Shown one piece after another: positions 3,813 through 15,457 of a stretch of 42,400 nucleotides of DNA. Made by a program: the position numbers and the translations under genes. The notes below the pieces were generated by a model. It worked only from the letters and a program-made list of their open reading frames with translations, was not told where the DNA came from and searched no databases. The stretch is from a virus. The stretch lies in the IMG/VR virus record IMGVR_UViG_3300031726_000881, positions 1-42,400 of that record; one strand, given 5' to 3'. Each line of letters opens with the position of its first letter. Position 1 is the first letter of the stretch.

Positions 3813-4195
3813 CCGACACCTCGGCTGGGCACGTCCCGGTTTCCGTTGTTGCGGACGAACGGATCAGCAGATTGGGTGGGCCATTTGGCGATGCTGCTGC
3901 TGAAGAAACGGCGGGGTGGCACCAGCTGCGGTGCCACATGGTTCTTTGCCGCTTCAAAGTCAGCCATTGCCCGGCGGCCTGTCATGGTGATGCCCAGCTG
4001 CAGCACGCCGCGCTGGTCTGGACCGGTGCGCTCGCGGGTGATCAGCCGGTGGTAAGCCAGCCGCTCCAGGTCGCGGTCAAGCATCTGGCGGCTGAGGCCG
4101 GTGGCAGTGAGTAGTGCCTCGCGGGTCTTTTCGGTCAGCTTGTCCAGGGCGGCCATGACCTGCGCCTGGCGTGGGGTTGGGGGTTTTGTGCTCAT
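3806..4195 (-). CDS. Winged-helix DNA-binding protein
   Basis: A 129-residue protein. Residues ~8-60 (RQAQVMAALDKLTEKTREAL, TATGLSRQMLDRDLERL) form a winged helix-turn-helix followed by a wing (TGPDQRGVLQLGITMTGRRA), the arrangement of MarR/phage replication-control folds. The C-terminal 45 residues are basic and low in structure. It starts at an ATG overlapping the stop of the ParB-like gene. A regulatory role is inferred from the fold; no target is visible. Confidence 0.65.
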   Translation of the reverse strand: MSTKPPTPRQAQVMAALDKLTEKTREALLTATGLSRQMLDRDLERLAYHRLITRERTGPDQRGVLQLGITMTGRRAMADFEAAKNHVAPQLVPPRRFFSSSIAKWPTQSADPFVRNNGNRDVPSRGVGC

Positions 4196-6405
4196 GCCGT
4201 CACCACCGTCAACTCAGAATGATCAAGGCTGGCTAGTCCACCCTTGCGTCCACGAAAGCTCACCATCCACGCCCCGGCACCCAGCTTTTGCTGAATGACG
4301 CCTTCCTTCCCGGCCCATTTGTGGTGGTGCACCGGCAGCTTGTCCAGGTCACTGGTCACCACTACACGCGCATCCACAGCCAGAGCCACACCCGCCACGA
4401 CCGGAGCGCTAGCGACGGGCGGGGTGGACGTGGCTACTGGCTGGCTACTGTCAGCTTTGTTGCCCTGCGCTTCAGCGCCTGGAGTGGACCCCTGGGCTTC
4501 CTGCAGCGCAGCGGCAATCAGGGCCTGCGCTTGCGCAGCTGTGGTTTTTGGTTTTTTCGCCTTACCCACACCCTGCGCTTGCGCAGCGGGGGTAAGGGGT
4601 AGAGGCACTTGCAGCAGCTCTTCAAGGGTTCCACCTTTTTCAAGGTGGATTTGCACCCACTTGGGTTTTTGGCCACGGCCTGTCCACGTGCTGTGGGTCA
4701 TGGGGCAGCGGTACATCACGTCTTTGGTGGTGGCCGGTGCTGCCTGGCGGCGCATCTTGGCCTTGACCTCGGCTTTGATGGCATCGGCATCCACACCATA
4801 GTCAGCCGCCACCAGCATCAGGCCCACGTTTTGCGGCCGGTCTGGGTAGTGCTCGGCCATGTAAGACAGGTACTCGACGTCCGCTTGCATGATCAGCAGC
4901 TGCAGCACGTCTTGTGGCCGCTCGGCGTCTGTGATGTAGTCAATCAGCGCGGCCTTGGGCGCCACCTTGCCCAGGTCAAGGATCTGGCACAGGCGTTTGG
5001 CGCGGTCGGTGTTGGCTACGTTGGCAAAGTGCATGGCCAAGTGGCGCAGCACCTTGTCGGTCAGCCCAAGATCTTCACCGTCATTTTTGATGGCAGCCCA
5101 TGTGCGCTCCAGCAGCAGGGTACGCCAGCCTTGCTCGTACTCGGTTTTGGTTTTGGCTTTCTCAAGCTCGGCGTCGGCCTTTTTGCTGCGCTCAAGGTTG
5201 CCAGCCACGCGCTCGGCGGCGTCGGCGTGCTGGGTGGCTTTGAGCAGATCGGCCACCTGGGTGTTGGGCAGCACGGCAATCAGCTCGCCTGCCTTGTGCG
5301 GGTTGGCGATCAAGGTGGGCTTGATGCCCTCGGCCTCTAGCTGCTTGTCAAGCAGCTTGCGCAGGGGCGTGTCGGTGGGGCTGTCTTGGACTTCGTCCAA
5401 GCGCAAATAACCATCCACACCCCCCCAGCTGTTGGGCATCAGTGCCTTGGCCTCGCGGCCCTCGATGATGGTCTGGCCGTTGGCCTGGGCATTGGCCAGC
5501 ATCAGGGCGCTGTGGGCCTCTTCTTTGCGGTGGTAGCAGGGCGGATCGGTGCACACGTCTGCACCTTGCACGTCAGAAAACAGGTCTGGGTTGTGGCCAG
5601 TGCGTTTGCTGCACGTCCTGCAGCTGCCCGCCTCGGCCACCAAGTTGGCATCGGTGATCTTGAATGGGGCACGGTCCAGGTGCAGCATGTACTGCTGCTG
5701 GATCAAGGCCTGGGCGGCACGGTAGCCCAGATTGACATCGCCAGAGTAATCCTTGGCGCTCAAGCTATCCAGCGCCTTGATCTGCAGGGTGGTGTCTGGA
5801 ATGCGGGCCAGCAGCAAGGCGCGGCTGGCATCAATGGCGCCGGTGCGCAGGGCGGTGCGAGCCTCGGTGCACAAATCCAGCAATTTGAGGCGTGCGTAGA
5901 CGTAGGCGCGGCTGCGTTTGATCTTGGCGCCCACTTGGTCAGCAGTGAGGCCAGCGTGCTGCATCAGCTGCTCAAGCCCCTCGGCCTCTTCCAGCTCGGT
6001 CAAATCGTCACGCTGCAGGTTTTCAGTGAGCTGAATCTCGCGCACCTGGTCATCGGTCAGGATGCGCACCAGCACCGGCACGCTCTCTAGCCCAGCCAGT
6101 TTTGCAGCGCGGAACCGCCGCTCGCCAGCGACAACTTCAAGGTGCACGTGGCGGTCTGTGTCGGCCATCCGGCTACCGGGCAAGGCACGCACGAGAATGG
6201 GCTGCAGCATGCCTTTTTCGGCGATGTCGTCGGCCAGGGCTTTGAGCTTGACCGGGTCAAAAGTCTTGCGTGGGTTGGTCAGGCTGGCGACGATGGCCCG
6301 CAGCTCTGCAATCACAAAAGCGTCTTGGGTCACCAGCTCCCACACGGCGGGCGTGACGGGGTCGGTTAAGGCAATGGCACTGGCGGGGGAGGATGGCGCG
6401 GTCAT
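4192..6405 (-). CDS. ParB-like DNA-binding protein (large)
   Basis: A 737-residue protein. Residues ~40-115 are a ParB/Srx N-terminal domain (PRKTFDPVKLKALADDI, GMLQPILVR, VVAGERRFRAAKLAGLE), including the GERRxRA box where ParB proteins bind CTP. A helix-turn-helix follows (GLTADQVGAKIKRSRAYVYA, ~152-171). Next comes a Cys-rich stretch (CRTCSKRTG, CTDPPCYHR), probably a zinc site, and a long region ending in a small C-terminal beta domain. This resembles the ParB-like proteins of PRTRC-type systems more than chromosomal ParB. No ParA is seen, so a role in partition is doubtful; a role in replication, DNA modification or nuclease activity is possible. ATGA overlaps couple it to both neighbours, including the DGR reverse transcriptase upstream. 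Confidence 0.8.
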   Translation of the reverse strand: MTAPSSPASAIALTDPVTPAVWELVTQDAFVIAELRAIVASLTNPRKTFDPVKLKALADDIAEKGMLQPILVRALPGSRMADTDRHVHLEVVAGERRFRAAKLAGLESVPVLVRILTDDQVREIQLTENLQRDDLTELEEAEGLEQLMQHAGLTADQVGAKIKRSRAYVYARLKLLDLCTEARTALRTGAIDASRALLLARIPDTTLQIKALDSLSAKDYSGDVNLGYRAAQALIQQQYMLHLDRAPFKITDANLVAEAGSCRTCSKRTGHNPDLFSDVQGADVCTDPPCYHRKEEAHSALMLANAQANGQTIIEGREAKALMPNSWGGVDGYLRLDEVQDSPTDTPLRKLLDKQLEAEGIKPTLIANPHKAGELIAVLPNTQVADLLKATQHADAAERVAGNLERSKKADAELEKAKTKTEYEQGWRTLLLERTWAAIKNDGEDLGLTDKVLRHLAMHFANVANTDRAKRLCQILDLGKVAPKAALIDYITDAERPQDVLQLLIMQADVEYLSYMAEHYPDRPQNVGLMLVAADYGVDADAIKAEVKAKMRRQAAPATTKDVMYRCPMTHSTWTGRGQKPKWVQIHLEKGGTLEELLQVPLPLTPAAQAQGVGKAKKPKTTAAQAQALIAAALQEAQGSTPGAEAQGNKADSSQPVATSTPPVASAPVVAGVALAVDARVVVTSDLDKLPVHHHKWAGKEGVIQQKLGAGAWMVSFRGRKGGLASLDHSELTVVTA

Positions 6406-7763
6406 GGTTGGCCTTTCTTTCGGTAAATCTTGGTCATATCGCCTGCAACCACATGCCCGCGCTTAAGCATCAGCTTGGCAATGCGGGTGCGGTCGTGGTG
6501 GCTGTGGGTGGCTTGGCGTAGCAGGCCGAAGTAGCTGTTGGCGGCTGGGTGCAGGTCGGCAGCGGGCATGTCTTGCAGGCGGTCCAGCGCCACATGTATG
6601 GTCTTGCGCCGGGTGATGCGCCGCCAGGGTTTGACCAGGTGGCCCACAAAGTCAATTCCGCGCGCTACTGGCTGCAGGATGGTCTTGCGTGGGTTGAGCT
6701 GTAGGTCAAGGGTGGTCAGCTTGGCCTCAATCTGGCTGCGTGCTTGGTTGAGCCATTGGGGGCTGTGGTGCAGCAGCACAAAGTCATCCACATAGCGCAC
6801 GTAAGTCGGCGCACCGATGCGGTGTTTGACAAACTGGTCCAGATCGTCCAGCAGCACATTGGCAAAAAACTGGCTGCTGAGGTTACCAATGGGCAGGCCG
6901 TAGCCCTGGGGTGCGTTGGCCAGCCGCTTGTGGGGTGGCACCAGTGCCAGCTCGGCAGGGGTGCCGCGCACCTCTACGTCCTGGCGCGGGTCGTGCATCA
7001 GGATGACTTGGGCCAGCGACATCCACCACGGCTCTGTCACCCGGCGCTGCAGTTGCTCCAGCAGCACGGCCTTGTTGATCGACACAAAGAAGTTGGCCAG
7101 GTCACACTTGAGGTAGTGCGCTGTCTGGCTCCAGTTGTGGGTGTAGCTGCGCACCTGGTGCTCCAGCCGCTTGGCAGCGTAGAGGGTGCCGCGCCCGGGG
7201 ATGCATGCACAGCTGTCGGCCACAAAACTGGCGTGAAAACGCGGCGCAATGTGGTTGTACAGCAGGTGGTGCACGATGCGGTCGCGGAAGCGTGCCGCCC
7301 ACACCTCGCGTGGCTTGGGGTGGGTGATCACAAAGCAGACAGACCGCCCGGGCTGGTAGGTGCCGGATGACAGCTCGTCATACAGCTGGTAGAGGTTGTG
7401 CTCGGCCTGGGCCTCAAAAGCCAGGGCACTGGTGCTGTTGCGCTTGGTGCGACGGCAATCAAGGTAGGCCTGCACCAGGTGGTAGAACAGGTGTGGATCT
7501 GCGGACGGCAACAGCACCACCTTCGTAGCTCTTGTGGTTGTTGTTCTGGTTGCCGTTGTTGAAGTTGCAATTCCAGGCGTAAGAGGCACCATCGCGCTAT
7601 TGAGGCTGCCCACCCGAAGGCCTGAGCCGATCAGGTGGGTGGCTGCACCAGACCGGGCCTGCACTTGTGCAGCGGTGTCTGTGATGTGCATGTCGGTGGC
7701 CTTGTGGGCCAGCGGCGCGACCAGATTCACTGTGCGCACGGGTGTGAGGGCCTTGACCGTCAT
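6402..7763 (-). CDS. DGR reverse transcriptase
   Basis: The reverse transcriptase copies the template RNA with adenine-specific errors for transfer into the variable genes. The catalytic box is VRYVDDFVLL. The motif GLPIGNLSSQFF has the (L/I)GNxxSQ form diagnostic of DGR enzymes rather than the QGxxxSP of retrons and group II introns. RT similarity begins at DPHLFYHLVQAYLDCRR (about residue 92) and runs to the end. The 453-codon frame starts at 7763, overlapping the Avd stop (ATGA). The first ~90 residues have no RT similarity, and residues ~59-87 are read through the TR. An in-frame ATG at 7592 would give 396 residues, nearer the usual size. No Met lies between the TR and the RT domain, so the true start is uncertain. 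Confidence 0.95.
   Translation of the reverse strand: MTVKALTPVRTVNLVAPLAHKATDMHITDTAAQVQARSGAATHLIGSGLRVGSLNSAMVPLTPGIATSTTATRTTTTRATKVVLLPSADPHLFYHLVQAYLDCRRTKRNSTSALAFEAQAEHNLYQLYDELSSGTYQPGRSVCFVITHPKPREVWAARFRDRIVHHLLYNHIAPRFHASFVADSCACIPGRGTLYAAKRLEHQVRSYTHNWSQTAHYLKCDLANFFVSINKAVLLEQLQRRVTEPWWMSLAQVILMHDPRQDVEVRGTPAELALVPPHKRLANAPQGYGLPIGNLSSQFFANVLLDDLDQFVKHRIGAPTYVRYVDDFVLLHHSPQWLNQARSQIEAKLTTLDLQLNPRKTILQPVARGIDFVGHLVKPWRRITRRKTIHVALDRLQDMPAADLHPAANSYFGLLRQATHSHHDRTRIAKLMLKRGHVVAGDMTKIYRKKGQP
7502..7587 (-). repeat. DGR template repeat (TR)
   Basis: An 86-bp sequence between the Avd gene and the RT domain matches two downstream copies, VR1 (8173-8258) and VR2 (8673-8758). Read in the frame of the variable proteins it encodes WNCNFNNGNQNNNHKSYEGG, with the AAC codons that are hallmarks of DGR templates. 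It has 25 adenines on the coding strand; 18 of them are changed in at least one variable copy and no other base is changed. It lies inside the long RT frame but is out of phase with it relative to the variable genes. Confidence 0.95.
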
Positions 7764-8122
7764 ACAGCAGGCGCCCTGTTCGTTTTCTTGAGCCAGCCAC
7801 CGGCTTGCTTCCCGATGCTGCCCAGCAGCTCGATGGACTCAGCCCAGAGCTTGGGCGAGATGTATCGGGCATCGTGACTGACGCGCAGCAGGACAGTGAT
7901 GGCGCGCTCGGTAGCGAGCAGCTTGTGAATGTACTTAGCGCGGGTTTCGTGCTGGGTAGCATTGGCAAGGGCCATCAGGTCCAGCATTTCAACGCAGTGC
8001 TGGGTGATCTTCTCGCCCAACGCCCGCTTGACTGTTCGCGGCATTTGAACCTGTGCTTTTATAGCCAGATCCAACAGCCGGATACCGGTGCGGTGAATTG
8101 GGATTTCGGTGTGCAAAGCCAT
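7760..8122 (-). CDS. avd: Avd-like accessory variability determinant
   Basis: A 120-residue basic all-helical protein (LLDLAIKAQVQMPRTVKRAL, ITQHCVEMLDLMALANAT, HKLLATERAITVLLRVSHD) of the four-helix-bundle family to which bAvd belongs. Avd binds the reverse transcriptase and the template RNA and is needed for mutagenic retrohoming in the Bordetella phage DGR. Its place between the variable genes and TR-RT is the canonical DGR layout. Its stop overlaps the first ATG of the RT frame. The function is assigned from fold and position. Confidence 0.88.
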   Translation of the reverse strand: MALHTEIPIHRTGIRLLDLAIKAQVQMPRTVKRALGEKITQHCVEMLDLMALANATQHETRAKYIHKLLATERAITVLLRVSHDARYISPKLWAESIELLGSIGKQAGGWLKKTNRAPAV

Positions 8123-8162
8123 GACTTGGTGCGGCTCAGTTAAAGGATTGAAGGACTAAATC

Positions 8163-8621
8163 TCAAAATCTACGGACGGCAACAGCACCACCTTCGTAGC
8201 TCTTGCGGCCGGTGCTCTGGTAGCCGCCGTAGAAGAGGCAACCCCAGGCGGAAGAGGCGTCTTCCTCATGTGTCTCGCTAGACCAATGCCACTCGGGCTT
8301 GAGGTGTGGCTTGCAGTTGGCGTACAGCAAGGCCTGCTCTTGGCGGGTTGGGATCGAGCCGCCAATGCTGGCGGCCCAATCCATAGCGGCCTGCCAGGTG
8401 AGCTTGCCTTGCGGCCGCTGAGTCATCAGCACCAAGTGGTGGTCAACATGGCCTGATTCGTTGAGCACCGGCCCGGCATAGCGCTCACCTGGGAAAAGCT
8501 CAATTTCAGCTTCTGCATAGCGCCAGAGCACTGGCTTATTGGCATCCGCTTTGAACTGGGCAATCAGCTTGCTCAATTCGGTTTGTTTGGCCTCGATGGC
8601 TTCAAGGGTGATGGTGGTCAT
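8163..8621 (-). CDS. DGR variable protein 1 (C-type-lectin/DUF1566-like)
   Basis: A 152-residue protein starting MTTITLEAIEAKQTELSKLI, chosen because AGGAG lies just upstream; the longer open frame to 8891 runs antisense to meaning inside variable gene 2. The N-terminal ~25 residues are helical. The rest is a compact domain (LTWQAAMDWAASIGGSIPTR, EWHWSSE) of the DUF1566/formylglycine-enzyme-like C-type lectin type used as a DGR target. The C-terminal 30 residues are VR1, ending SYEGGAVAVRRF. Compared with the template translation, changes fall at Asn, Tyr and His codons (for example FNNGNQNNNH becomes FYGGYQSTGR). It should display a ligand-binding surface; the partner is unknown. Confidence 0.9.
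   Translation of the reverse strand: MTTITLEAIEAKQTELSKLIAQFKADANKPVLWRYAEAEIELFPGERYAGPVLNESGHVDHHLVLMTQRPQGKLTWQAAMDWAASIGGSIPTRQEQALLYANCKPHLKPEWHWSSETHEEDASSAWGCLFYGGYQSTGRKSYEGGAVAVRRF
8173..8258 (-). repeat. DGR variable repeat 1 (VR1)
   Basis: This 86-bp copy of the TR forms the 3' end of variable gene 1. It differs at 14 positions, all at adenines of the TR coding strand; the 30 bp nearest the stop codon, where homing would initiate, are identical. Upstream of the repeat the two sequences diverge at once. Confidence 0.95.
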
Positions 8622-8650
8622 GGTGGCTCCTAAAAAAAAGGATTGAAGAA

Positions 8651-9040
8651 TTAAGCGATGAGGGGAATCAAGCGGACGGCAACAGCACCACCTCCGAAGC
8701 TCTTGCGGGTGTCGCTCTGGTAGCCGTAGCCGAAGTTGCAATACCAGGCGCAAGAGGCGTCGTCTTCCTCGCTGGTCCAGTGCCAGCCGCTCGGCAGCGT
8801 GGCCTTGATGTTGGCAAACAACAGCGCAGCCACGGGCCGAGTGGGCAGCACTCCGCCTTGTTTCTTGGCCCAGGTAATGGCCTTGTTCCACGTGAGGCTG
8901 GTGCCGTTTCCTGGCAGGCGGATCACAGCGCTGTGCACACCGTCTTTGGTGGTGATGACGCCCGCAAAGATGCCGCCTTCAAGCGGTTCACCCAAGGCGG
9001 GTAGATTGGAAATAGACAGGGTTTTGGTTTGAGTGGACAT
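8651..9040 (-). CDS. DGR variable protein 2 (C-type-lectin/DUF1566-like)
   Basis: A 129-residue protein with the same fold as variable protein 1: LTWNKAITWAKKQGGVLPTR aligns with LTWQAAMDWAASIGGSIPTR, and GWHWTSEEDDAS with EWHWSSETHEEDAS. It lacks the helical N-terminal extension of protein 1. Its C-terminus carries VR2 (CAWYCNFGYGYQSDTRKSFG) followed by an extra hydrophobic tail, LIPLIA. It is the upstream member of a tandem duplicated target pair. No signal peptide or membrane segment is visible in either protein, so display on a particle or binding inside the cell are both possible. Confidence 0.9.
   Translation of the reverse strand: MSTQTKTLSISNLPALGEPLEGGIFAGVITTKDGVHSAVIRLPGNGTSLTWNKAITWAKKQGGVLPTRPVAALLFANIKATLPSGWHWTSEEDDASCAWYCNFGYGYQSDTRKSFGGGAVAVRLIPLIA
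8673..8758 (-). repeat. DGR variable repeat 2 (VR2)
   Basis: An 86-bp copy of the TR at the 3' end of variable gene 2. It has 12 differences from the TR, all at coding-strand adenines and largely at a different set of sites from VR1, so the two targets have been mutated independently. The 20 bp nearest the stop end are identical to the TR. Confidence 0.95.
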
Positions 9041-9070
9041 GGTTGGCTTTCTGGGTGGTGGGTGAAGCGG

Positions 9071-9343
9071 TTAGAGGGTGGGGTTGGCGGCGTGGTCACC
9101 GTGGCATTGCCTGCGGTTGTTTTCGGCGGTGGTGCCGTAGTTGGCGATCTGAACGGCGGCGGCGTCGAGCCGCTTGGCCAGTCGATCGGCAGTGAGGCCC
9201 CACTGATGGCATGCGCGGATGTAGGCATCCATGCCTGCAGCCTGGGCGGGAGTTAGGGGCTTGCCGACTGCGGGCACAGCGTCGGTTTTGACGGACACAG
9301 TTTTGTCTGGCGTATCGGTGAAGGTGATGGTGACTGATGCCAT
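9071..9343 (-). CDS. Hypothetical phage protein
   Basis: A 90-residue protein starting MASVTITFTDTPDKTVSVKT with GAGAG upstream. An N-terminal beta segment leads into a helical half (LTPAQAAGMDAYIRACHQWG, ADRLAKRLDAAAVQI). I recall similar short proteins in Burkholderiales prophages. It lies directly upstream of the two DGR target genes, within the leftward operon. Function unknown. Confidence 0.65.
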   Translation of the reverse strand: MASVTITFTDTPDKTVSVKTDAVPAVGKPLTPAQAAGMDAYIRACHQWGLTADRLAKRLDAAAVQIANYGTTAENNRRQCHGDHAANPTL

Positions 9344-9904: not shown

Positions 9905-10086
9905 GGTTGCTCCAGGACGAGTTGGGTGGTGCGGGCGGCAGCGGCGGCTATCTGGGCGTCGATAACGCTGTCTGCCGTGGCCTGGATGGCGTCAAGCTCG
10001 GTGGGGCCATCCAGCAGGTAAGTGCAGCTCAAGCCCAGGGCAATGAGCGCGGCCAGGGTCCAGTTGATGAGGCGGTGGCGGGTCAT
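9901..10086 (-). CDS. Small membrane-anchored or exported protein
   Basis: A 61-residue protein with a basic start (MTRHRLINW) and a hydrophobic segment (TLAALIALGLSCTYLL) followed by a polar helix. The cysteine in GLSC is not a good lipobox because Gly stands at -3. It is translationally coupled to genes on both sides. Confidence 0.55.
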   Translation of the reverse strand: MTRHRLINWTLAALIALGLSCTYLLDGPTELDAIQATADSVIDAQIAAAAARTTQLVLEQP

Positions 10087-10346
10087 GCGGCACCGCCTTC
10101 GCCGCGTTCACTAAAAGCAGAGTGAAATAAACCCTTGGGACTGGGCTCGCCGAGGGCTTTGGCAAAGGCGGTGCGCAAGTCCGCCGTTGCTTGGGGCGTG
10201 AGCACCCTCAGGCGCAAACCGTCGGGAAACACCTGGCAGAGCATGCTCCCGCCTTCTTCAAGGTGCTTTGCCGCAAGCTGCTCAATCAGTCGGCGCTGCT
10301 GTGGTGTGGTAATGACCGTGCTGGCGGCCTCGTGCACGGGCTTCAT
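10083..10346 (-). CDS. Hypothetical phage protein
   Basis: An 87-residue protein. I place the start at the ATG at 10346 (MKPVHEAASTVITTPQQRRL), which overlaps the previous stop as ATGA; a longer frame to 10418 would run deep into the preceding gene. It is helical in its first half, then has a beta segment (SMLCQVFPDGLRLRVLTPQA). No family recognised. Confidence 0.6.
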   Translation of the reverse strand: MKPVHEAASTVITTPQQRRLIEQLAAKHLEEGGSMLCQVFPDGLRLRVLTPQATADLRTAFAKALGEPSPKGLFHSAFSERGEGGAA

Positions 10347-10801
10347 GCTGCATGAACCTTCAGATCCGGGATGGCATCCTTGTTGCACTTGCCCTTGAGC
10401 CGCAGGGAGTGCGCCCACAGCTCCATGGTGTGGCCGGTGCTCTTGCCGTAGGGAACAGCGAGGATGGCATCCAGCAGCACATGGATCTCACACCAGCAGC
10501 GGCGGCTGTCCATGTGGATCACCATCATGGCCGCGTCGTGCAGACGGTCATCCAGGCGGCGCAGGTCCGTCAGGTCAAACTGGAAGCGGTCGCCGTTGTA
10601 CAGGCCCAGCAACAAGCGTGCGCAAGTGCCGCCGCCACCGGTGTCGAGCATGGTGCGGGCAGCGGTGTAGAGCTGCAGCGCGGCGTCTTGCTGCTGCTGC
10701 GAGTAGTGGCTAAGGGTGATTTCGCGCTGAGCCTGGATGGCGATTTGGCGCGGGGTGAGCGCTGGTGCGGGCGCTTCGGTGGCGGTGGGTGTTGACATCA
10801 T
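10343..10801 (-). CDS. Conserved hypothetical phage protein
   Basis: A 152-residue protein with a very strong ribosome site (GGGGAGGAATC) before its ATG. The central block (CARLLLGLYNGDRFQFDLTD, LRRLDDRLHDAAMMVIHMDS) is the kind of conserved block seen in an uncharacterised protein of Burkholderiales phages. Two Cys and two His in DSRRCWCEIHVL and GHTMELWAH might bind metal, but that is speculation. It is the first undisputed gene of the leftward operon. Confidence 0.65.
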   Translation of the reverse strand: MMSTPTATEAPAPALTPRQIAIQAQREITLSHYSQQQQDAALQLYTAARTMLDTGGGGTCARLLLGLYNGDRFQFDLTDLRRLDDRLHDAAMMVIHMDSRRCWCEIHVLLDAILAVPYGKSTGHTMELWAHSLRLKGKCNKDAIPDLKVHAA

Positions 10802-11292
10802 GATTCCTCCCCCACAATGCAGGTTTCAACTACGCGGGGAATGTCATGAGCCAACAGGTTCAAGCCATCGGCATGGTCTGGTACAAGCGCGAGAATTTCG
10901 ACAGGTTGATGGCCATGTTTGAGGACCGTCACAAACTGCATCGCACTTTCGACGAGTGGCTGCGGGATGCCGAGATAGGCAGAAAGGCTCAGGAGGCTAA
11001 AGGCGTCCGGGTTGTCTGTGTAGACATAGACCCGGCCACTTTCCCCGCCTGGTGCGCCGGGCGTGGCTTGCGTGTCGATGCCAAGGCTCGCACCGAATAC
11101 GCAAATCTGATCGCCTACAAGGTGCTCACCGGGGTTGAGCCGCCGAAAGGCGTCCAGTAGCGCTTGGTTGGCTTGCTCGGCGTGGCCGGGCTGTTGATCT
11201 GAGATTTGCGCTAACTCAAGAACTCGAAGGTTGAGTTGCGCCACCAGAACCGCGTGCTTAGCCGCAGCGATTGACTCACGGGTCGTTGCCAT
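10798..11292 (-). CDS. Possible first gene of the leftward operon (antisense overlap)
   Basis: A 164-codon frame starting MATTRESIAAAKHAVLVAQL. In its favour: it starts 37 bases after the predicted PL start point, has GGAG eight bases before its ATG, and its stop overlaps the next gene as ATGA. Against it: residues ~45-149 are codon-aligned antisense to a plus-strand gene with a recognisable family, a phase in which stops are rare in GC-rich DNA. No family is recognised. The N-terminal 44 residues do not overlap the other gene and could be real on their own. Confidence 0.4.
   Translation of the reverse strand: MATTRESIAAAKHAVLVAQLNLRVLELAQISDQQPGHAEQANQALLDAFRRLNPGEHLVGDQICVFGASLGIDTQATPGAPGGESGRVYVYTDNPDAFSLLSLSAYLGIPQPLVESAMQFVTVLKHGHQPVEILALVPDHADGLNLLAHDIPRVVETCIVGEES
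10846..11160 (+). CDS. Conserved hypothetical protein
   Basis: A 104-residue protein with GGGGA six bases before its ATG. The pattern GMVWYKRENFDRLMAMFEDR, TFDEWLRDAE, VDIDPATFPAWCAGRGLRVD, KARTEYAN matches a small uncharacterised family I recall from many proteobacteria, with conserved WY, EWL and DPxTFPxWC blocks. G/C is enriched at its third codon positions. It runs against the surrounding leftward operon and is wholly overlapped by an open frame on the other strand (10798-11292). I consider this strand the better supported of the two. Confidence 0.65.
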   Translation: MSQQVQAIGMVWYKRENFDRLMAMFEDRHKLHRTFDEWLRDAEIGRKAQEAKGVRVVCVDIDPATFPAWCAGRGLRVDAKARTEYANLIAYKVLTGVEPPKGVQ

Positions 11293-11335
11293 TTTTCACT
11301 CCAGAAAACCGCCGTGGGGTGGCGGGCTGGAGTGA

Positions 11336-11364
11336 ATTACACCAGTTGGTATAGATTGAGTCAA
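11336..11364 (-). promoter_or_regulatory. Leftward early promoter PL
   Basis: On the minus strand, TTGACT (11364-11359) and TGTAAT (11341-11336) are separated by exactly 17 bp. It points into the leftward operon that carries the DGR. The -35, spacer and -10 are nearly the same sequence as PR at 12964-12992. Two operator palindromes overlap it. Confidence 0.75.
11338..11353. promoter_or_regulatory. Operator OL-a
   Basis: TACACC-AGTT-GGTATA, an inverted repeat of the form TAYACC-N4-GGTRTA that covers the -10 and spacer of PL. The same motif occurs three more times: 11363-11378, 12950-12965 and 12975-12990. Confidence 0.65.
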
Positions 11365-15001: not shown

Positions 15002-15457
15002 ATGACCACACTCCGAGACCACGCATACGCACTTGCACGCGCTTACCCTGGCGGGGCTGCAGCTCTGGCGTTGCGTATGGACAAAAACGCCACCAGCCTC
15101 AGCCATGAGCTGCTGGGCCAGGGTAGCGCCAAGCTGGGTTTGGAGGATGCCGCTGCACTGACCGCGCTCAGTGGTGACCTGCGCATCCTGGAGGCGTGGA
15201 ACGCAGAACATGGCCTGCTGGTGATCCGCATGCCCATGGTTATGGGTGATGGCACGGGCGGTTGTCTGGACAAGCTGAGCACAGCCGCCAAAGAGTTCAG
15301 CGACTTTGTTTCTGAGGTGGCGTCTGACATGTCTGACAGCCGCTTGAGCGACAACGAGCTGGGCCGCATCGAGCGCGAGGGCGCCGAGCTGCTGGCCGCT
15401 GTGCACAGCTTGCTCAAGACTGCCCGCCAGATCAACGCCCTGGAGCGCGGCGAATGA
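15002..15457 (+). CDS. Phage regulatory protein CII family (CP76-like)
   Basis: A 151-residue protein starting MTTLRDHAYALARAYPGGAA with TTGGAG upstream. The pattern of a short helical start, ALALRMDKNATSLSHELLGQ, then KLGLEDAAALTALSGDLRIL, is that of the phage CII/CP76 regulator family found in P2-like and other temperate phages, with a helix-turn-helix near residues 20-60. The C-terminal half is helical and acidic. By analogy it would promote repressor synthesis or control early genes. It overlaps the next gene by four bases (ATGA). Confidence 0.8.
   Translation: MTTLRDHAYALARAYPGGAAALALRMDKNATSLSHELLGQGSAKLGLEDAAALTALSGDLRILEAWNAEHGLLVIRMPMVMGDGTGGCLDKLSTAAKEFSDFVSEVASDMSDSRLSDNELGRIEREGAELLAAVHSLLKTARQINALERGE

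Follow-up and report, generated by a model that had tools for sequence, protein, structure and literature searches.

Phage diversity-generating retroelements (DGRs) are usually interpreted as switching host range through tail fibres, and Roux et al. (2021) found the viral targets of three DGR clades to be mostly tail proteins (PMC8144416). In BPP-1, the cassette (mtd-avd-TR-brt) lies in the tail module and has one 381-aa tail target; a spacer 3' of the template repeat (TR) recruits bRT-Avd and primes cDNA (PMC12875486). A closer relative of the locus studied here is the potential DGR of Burkholderia phage Magia, whose announcement names genes 47 and 57 as targets and suggests adaptation or host-range alteration; the part of its DGR account cited here makes no mention of template-RNA architecture (PMC7883833). 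We analysed a 42,400-nt stretch of viral DNA (IMG/VR record IMGVR_UViG_3300031726_000881), referred to below as the window. We conclude with good confidence that it carries a complete, recently active DGR and that this lies in the early-left/lysogeny operon of a lambda-type, temperate phage whose host probably belongs to the Betaproteobacteria.

The first-pass annotation of this DNA had proposed a complete DGR in which a single TR serves two targets, and all of the parts are indeed present. The minus-strand order that it gave (variable gene 2, variable gene 1, avd, TR, RT) was confirmed, as were the LPIGNLSSQ and YVDD motifs of a DGR-type reverse transcriptase (RT; IGxxxSQ, YxDD). The profile search that it had called for matched the RT (6402-7520, minus strand) to RVT_1 (2.5e-16) and PHROG 1423 (2.1e-110). 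The accessory protein Avd (120 aa; 7760-8122, minus strand) matched PF22296 bAvd at 43.1 bits against a cutoff of 40, and PHROG 3206, the Avd protein of DGRs, at 9.3e-24. The locus thus resembles BPP-1 in its target-avd-TR-RT order on one strand, its Avd, its adenine-specific changes, the position of the variable repeat (VR) at the 3' end of the target gene, and its RT, which is 29% identical to BPP-1 Brt. Directly downstream of the RT, positions 4192-6405 (minus strand) encode a 737-aa protein in which ParB N-terminal and HTH domains are joined to an H-NS C-terminal DNA-binding domain.

The 86-bp TR (7502-7587, minus strand) aligns without gaps to VR1 (8173-8258, minus strand) and VR2 (8673-8758, minus strand), and the two VRs share one codon register. 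Our recount reproduced the differences reported initially, 14 for VR1 and 12 for VR2: the repeats are near-identical, and all 26 differences fall at TR adenines, with none at the remaining 61 positions. The TR has 25 adenines, 18 of which are changed in at least one VR. Computing the bias over the three aligned repeats gave hypergeometric chances of 9.8e-10 for VR1 and 3.4e-8 for VR2. The TR reads ASYAWNCNFNNGNQNNNHKSYEGGAVAV and is rich in AAY codons; its eight AAY codons, together with the other adenine codons, allow about 1.7e14 possible protein variants. The window holds no further VRs beyond these two, and a scan of the same region for C-, G- or T-tolerant repeats gave no clean match. From a supposedly low overlap between the mutated sites, it had been argued that the two targets diversified separately. 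The overlap argument was wrong: eight sites are common to both VRs, against 6.7 expected by chance. Separate diversification nevertheless keeps some support, because at five of the eight common sites the VRs carry different bases, which is a better sign of independent events than the overlap count.

These repeats also bear on the identity of the RT. It matches PADLOC defence profiles (RT, 1.9e-41; RT_UG4, 1.5e-23), as would be expected if it were a defence RT of the DRT/UG type and the repeats were incidental. However, the same profiles match the RT of a tail-type DGR in a related phage (L090) equally well, whereas Avd, TR/VR pairs and adenine bias define DGRs and the RT itself groups with DGR RTs. 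We rejected the defence identity on these grounds and put its probability close to nil.

Whether the DGR has been active recently can be judged from near-identical phages. Two other IMG/VR records, L005 and L006, represent the same phage as the window. The 9,359 bp aligned between L006 and the window contain 17 differences: 14 in VR1, 1 in VR2 and 2 at the attachment site. Counted by region, there are 0/9,093 differences outside the repeats, 15/173 in the VRs and 0/87 in the TR, and 14 of the 15 VR changes are at TR-adenine sites. The VR1 of L006 differs from the TR at 12 positions, 11 of them adenines and one a T (position 7). Two other close pairs behave in the same way: L040 and L084 differ at 6/7694 background positions, 37/220 VR positions and 0/110 TR positions, and L031 and L032 at 6/2429, 14/107 and 0/107. 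The Pseudomonas aeruginosa phages Haboob and phPA-G differ at 2.6% of the background, 12.3% of the VRs and 0/103 of the TR. VR turnover with a fixed TR, the mark of one-way transfer, is thus found by comparison of records, and it supports a recently active DGR. One could instead suppose that the cassette is a relic, that the VR differences are old, and that near-identical phages differ through recombination with other phages. Some near-identical pairs do have identical VRs (L005/L006, L013/L014), and L005 shows, against the otherwise near-identical window, a cluster of divergence at 9915-11337 that looks recombinant and suggests recombination in the early region. But the window and L006 differ nowhere else in 9 kb than in the two VRs and two attachment-site bases, the changes are almost all at TR-adenine sites, and the window, like most relatives, has an open RT frame; we consider a relic very improbable.

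The RT search yielded 80 viral loci and 37 genome contigs, and the cassette is common to about 120 related loci in phages and prophages of Pseudomonadota, with named hosts that are mainly Betaproteobacteria, plus Pseudomonas. A few of these loci are not independent, being IMG/VR and genome-contig duplicates (L011/L097, L028/L107, L047/L117) or otherwise redundant (L126/L131, and L111/L112 from one MAG). TR/VR pairs are present in all viral loci and in most genome loci. The first TR/VR scan tolerated adenine mismatches, which would bias a count of adenine changes; adenine specificity was therefore recounted with neutral scoring. Across 172 VRs in 85 DGRs, 41.5% of A sites are changed, as against 1.1% of C, 2.0% of G and 3.2% of T sites. 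The adenine substitutions are skewed, with A going to G, T and C at 1069:658:324 (52%, 32% and 16%). Two VRs per cassette is the usual number, although some cassettes have a single one and others three or four; every VR is upstream and on the same strand, at distances of up to 9 kb. The cassettes of Magia, Cruim01, QDWS, Haboob and phPA-G belong to the same clade as that of the window, with RTs 59-64% identical, and share its small lectin-fold targets and early/lysogeny position. In Magia, our scan found three VRs, adding gene 46 to the two reported targets.

A feature that sets this cassette apart from BPP-1 is its template RNA. Immediately 5' of the TR, the window has a full-length match to RT-15 RNA (Rfam RF03018), a 192-nt structured leader (7585-7776, minus strand) that spans from the end of avd to the 5' edge of the TR and scores 169.6 bits, over the gathering cutoff of 82. 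RT-15 ends at the 5' edge of the TR in 40 of 40 related records and occurs in none of 14 control genomes; it is common to the window and the four named phages tested (Magia, Cruim01, QDWS and Haboob). Rfam lists this RNA as a generic sRNA, whereas we assign it here to the 5' portion of the DGR template RNA. The name RT-15 occurs in no paper found in the literature searched, a scope that leaves out Weinberg 2017 on RT-associated RNAs. In BPP-1 the structured DGR RNA, RF03022 (Phage_DGR), is 3' of the TR; the window has only RF03018, 5' of it. Also unlike BPP-1, RT coding starts at the 3' edge of the TR. We also asked whether, as in BPP-1, a structured RNA lies on the 3' side of the TR, here hidden among RT codons, and rejected this: the entropy of codon use is low only as far as GCA GAT, about four codons past the TR, and normal thereafter. 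With the 5' leader kept, and with the RT coding from the TR edge with normal codon use, there is no sign of a 3' spacer.

The start of the RT merits a separate comment. An open reading frame of 453 aa begins at 7763, but its first ~80 codons are RT-15 leader RNA and TR, it is interrupted by stops in many relatives, and its start codons are not conserved; we therefore rejected it as a real protein or N-terminal extension. Conservation of the RT begins at the 3' end of the TR. In-frame candidate starts are GTG 7520, GTG 7517, TTG 7511 and GTG 7475, and the start codon may lie among them inside the TR 3' end. Many relatives (L025, L028, L031, L045-L065, L085-L087) have an in-frame ATG ~60 nt inside the TR 3' end; in these, the template may double as coding sequence for the RT N-terminus.

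The leader appears to be tied to the far side of the TR. A conserved RT-15 segment, GTGAATCTG (7722-7730, minus strand), is unpaired in the Rfam structure and is complementary to CAGATCCAC (7493-7501, minus strand), the 9 nt directly 3' of the TR and inside the 5' RT coding sequence. In the window, 8/9 positions can pair; pair 6 is often an A-C mismatch, here as elsewhere. Across 68 distinct combinations of leader and flank, the share of paired cells is 86.3%, compared with 76.2 +/- 0.9 when shuffled, and two-sided changes occur at 7/9 pairs, for example TTGAATCCG with CGGATTCAA (L047) and CTCAACCTG with CAGGTTGG (L038). Covariation is 0.270, against 0.094 +/- 0.012 for shuffles and at most 0.138 for slid versions of the helix. 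The same leader pairs less well with VR flanks (5.2/9) than with TR flanks (7.8/9). These counts come from a composite alignment of two segments extracted from related phages, with shuffles that keep the relatedness, and the complementarity was spotted by eye before it was counted. This helix lies outside the Rfam RT-15 model. Single-sequence folding does not predict it and was uninformative for leader plus TR, a stretch that is not unusually stable (z -0.45). Judging from the covariation, the 9-bp helix would connect RT-15 with the 3' flank of the TR, hold the TR as a clamped loop and mark the TR 3' end.

Taken together with what is known from BPP-1, this suggests the following course of events. 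Once the operon is transcribed, the RT-15 leader would fold on the 5' side of the TR, and GTGAATCTG, left unpaired in it, would base-pair with the sequence immediately 3' of the TR, so that the TR forms a loop. RT and Avd would then bind, and the TR would be copied into cDNA with wrong bases inserted opposite adenines. This cDNA would take the place of VR1 or VR2, where one of the two small lectin-fold genes has its 3' end, leaving the TR unchanged, and the ligand-binding face of both variable proteins would be diversified, as their context suggests. The steps of cDNA priming, RT/Avd binding and retrohoming are modelled on BPP-1 and presumably apply here; the parts themselves, the adenine specificity, the VR turnover with fixed TR, the conserved RT-15 and the clamp covariation are read from the sequences.

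How the VRs would be recognised is suggested by what follows them. The element TTCAATCCTTT has only two copies in the 42.4 kb, one downstream of each VR (8142-8152 and 8637-8647, both minus strand), and is a candidate target-side element. It is possible that it serves as a target-recognition element in place of the BPP-1 stem-loop: no perfect stem of at least 7 bp follows VR1 or VR2 in the window. Across the family, such stems follow 43/172 VRs versus 2.2 expected from shuffles, and TTCAATCC follows 41/172. Other members have AT-rich repeats or GC-rich hairpins downstream of their VRs.

Both VRs sit at the 3' ends of genes that encode C-type lectin folds. Variable protein 1 (152 aa; 8163-8621, minus strand) has an N-terminal helix followed by a C-type lectin (Lcl_C-like) fold in an AlphaFold2 model with a pLDDT of 95.4. 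Its best PDB fold match is the C-terminal domain of Legionella Lcl (8q4e, E 1.4e-5), which is also the closest solved structure by sequence. Lcl is extracellular and binds sulphated glycosaminoglycans (PMC11162425), whereas no export signal is obvious in the phage proteins. Variable protein 2 (129 aa; 8651-9040, minus strand; PHROG 4245, 1.4e-5) also has a lectin fold; its model (pLDDT 80) is good except for the VR part, which is poor. Family targets are mostly 120-215 aa long and lectin-fold, and a crude hydropathy scan for signal peptides and transmembrane segments found a hydrophobic stretch (possible signal or membrane segment) in only 5 of 168.

The genomic setting of these genes is that of a lambda-type phage. 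Genes of the window are mostly on the minus strand up to about 15 kb, where a CII-like gene lies at 15,002; after it, helicase, Q-like antiterminator, terminase, capsid and tail genes follow on the plus strand. The cassette belongs to this minus-strand portion, at a distance from the tail genes, and thus, unlike that of BPP-1, it occupies the early/lysogeny region on the strand opposite the late genes and serves two small targets. Among related phages, 27 of the 29 records that carry a tyrosine integrase (PF00589) have it downstream of the RT at a distance of at most 9 kb, a count that assumes circular wrap in three records and whose binomial figure is not a strict probability because the records are related. 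Magia, Cruim01 and Haboob have repressor, DGR and integrase in this order on one strand, and QDWS has DGR and integrase on one strand. L005, whose VRs are the same as those of L006, joins the two ends of the window across a 2-kb gap that holds, downstream of the RT, a 541-aa serine integrase. Near 616, the left junction of the window has a core in common with this joined form; the window is therefore an integrated copy, with host DNA at 1-531. The junction (550-620) falls within the beginning of a host gene resembling rimO; the host gene at 1-531 is presumably phaR-like. In phages with readable maps, the cassette is on the lysogeny/early-left strand, operon position being no proof of expression time. 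We found no description of phage DGRs of the lysogeny region in the literature searched, a scope that leaves out the Wu 2018 survey. This position, the small targets and the 5' leader template RNA with its covarying clamp are what our analysis adds to the first-pass annotation.

What, then, do the variable proteins do? Their small size and few hydrophobic stretches, combined with the operon position, suggest soluble binding proteins of the early or lysogen stage rather than tail fibres. On the one hand, the best-studied phage DGR targets are tail proteins (PMC8144416), the lectin fold is of the same class as in tail-type targets, and host range is the role put forward for Magia; both variable proteins could therefore be virion receptor-binding proteins encoded outside the tail module, with the DGR switching host range as in BPP-1. 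On the other hand, the targets are on the strand opposite the late genes and adjoin lysogeny and early genes, the phages that carry them have unlike tails (a sheath gene in 4/40 records), the targets are small with no recognised tail-attachment part, and two of these phages have a separate DGR aimed at a large tail-module protein. A virion role thus seems doubtful to us.

The two phages in question, G009 (L090) and G026 (L091), carry an RT-15-type DGR and, in the tail module on the other strand, a second complete BPP-1-like DGR (6420-8277 and 6453-9209, respectively). The targets of the second DGRs, of 455 and 854 aa, are among tail/virion genes, and an avd gene or avd-sized open reading frame adjoins each TR. 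Their RTs are 35-40% identical to that of the window. In a 40-sequence tree they fall with BPP-1, apart from the RT-15 lineage (branch support 100/99 for the tail group and 87/60 for the RT-15 group as one side); Bacteroides phage F2 is at the edge of the RT-15 group and several branches are long, which leaves the exact root unsure. This separation indicates that the two cassettes in each phage are not recent duplicates.

We give about even odds to a distinct DGR lineage of temperate Pseudomonadota phages that uses an RT-15 clamp, not a 3' spacer, and is dedicated to diversifying small non-virion proteins of the early or lysogen stage, one conceivable use being to recognise proteins of the host or of rival phages inside the cell. 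The RT-15 assignment would give a function to a described RNA family, and the covarying clamp makes a clear prediction of how a DGR template RNA may work without the 3' spacer that BPP-1 needs. In the phages that carry both kinds of DGR, their roles can be compared within one genome, and in the cultured phages Magia, Haboob, phPA-G, Cruim01 and QDWS, the role of the targets and the template RNA can be tested now. If the targets do act at the early or lysogen stage, targeted hypermutation in phages would serve something besides adsorption.
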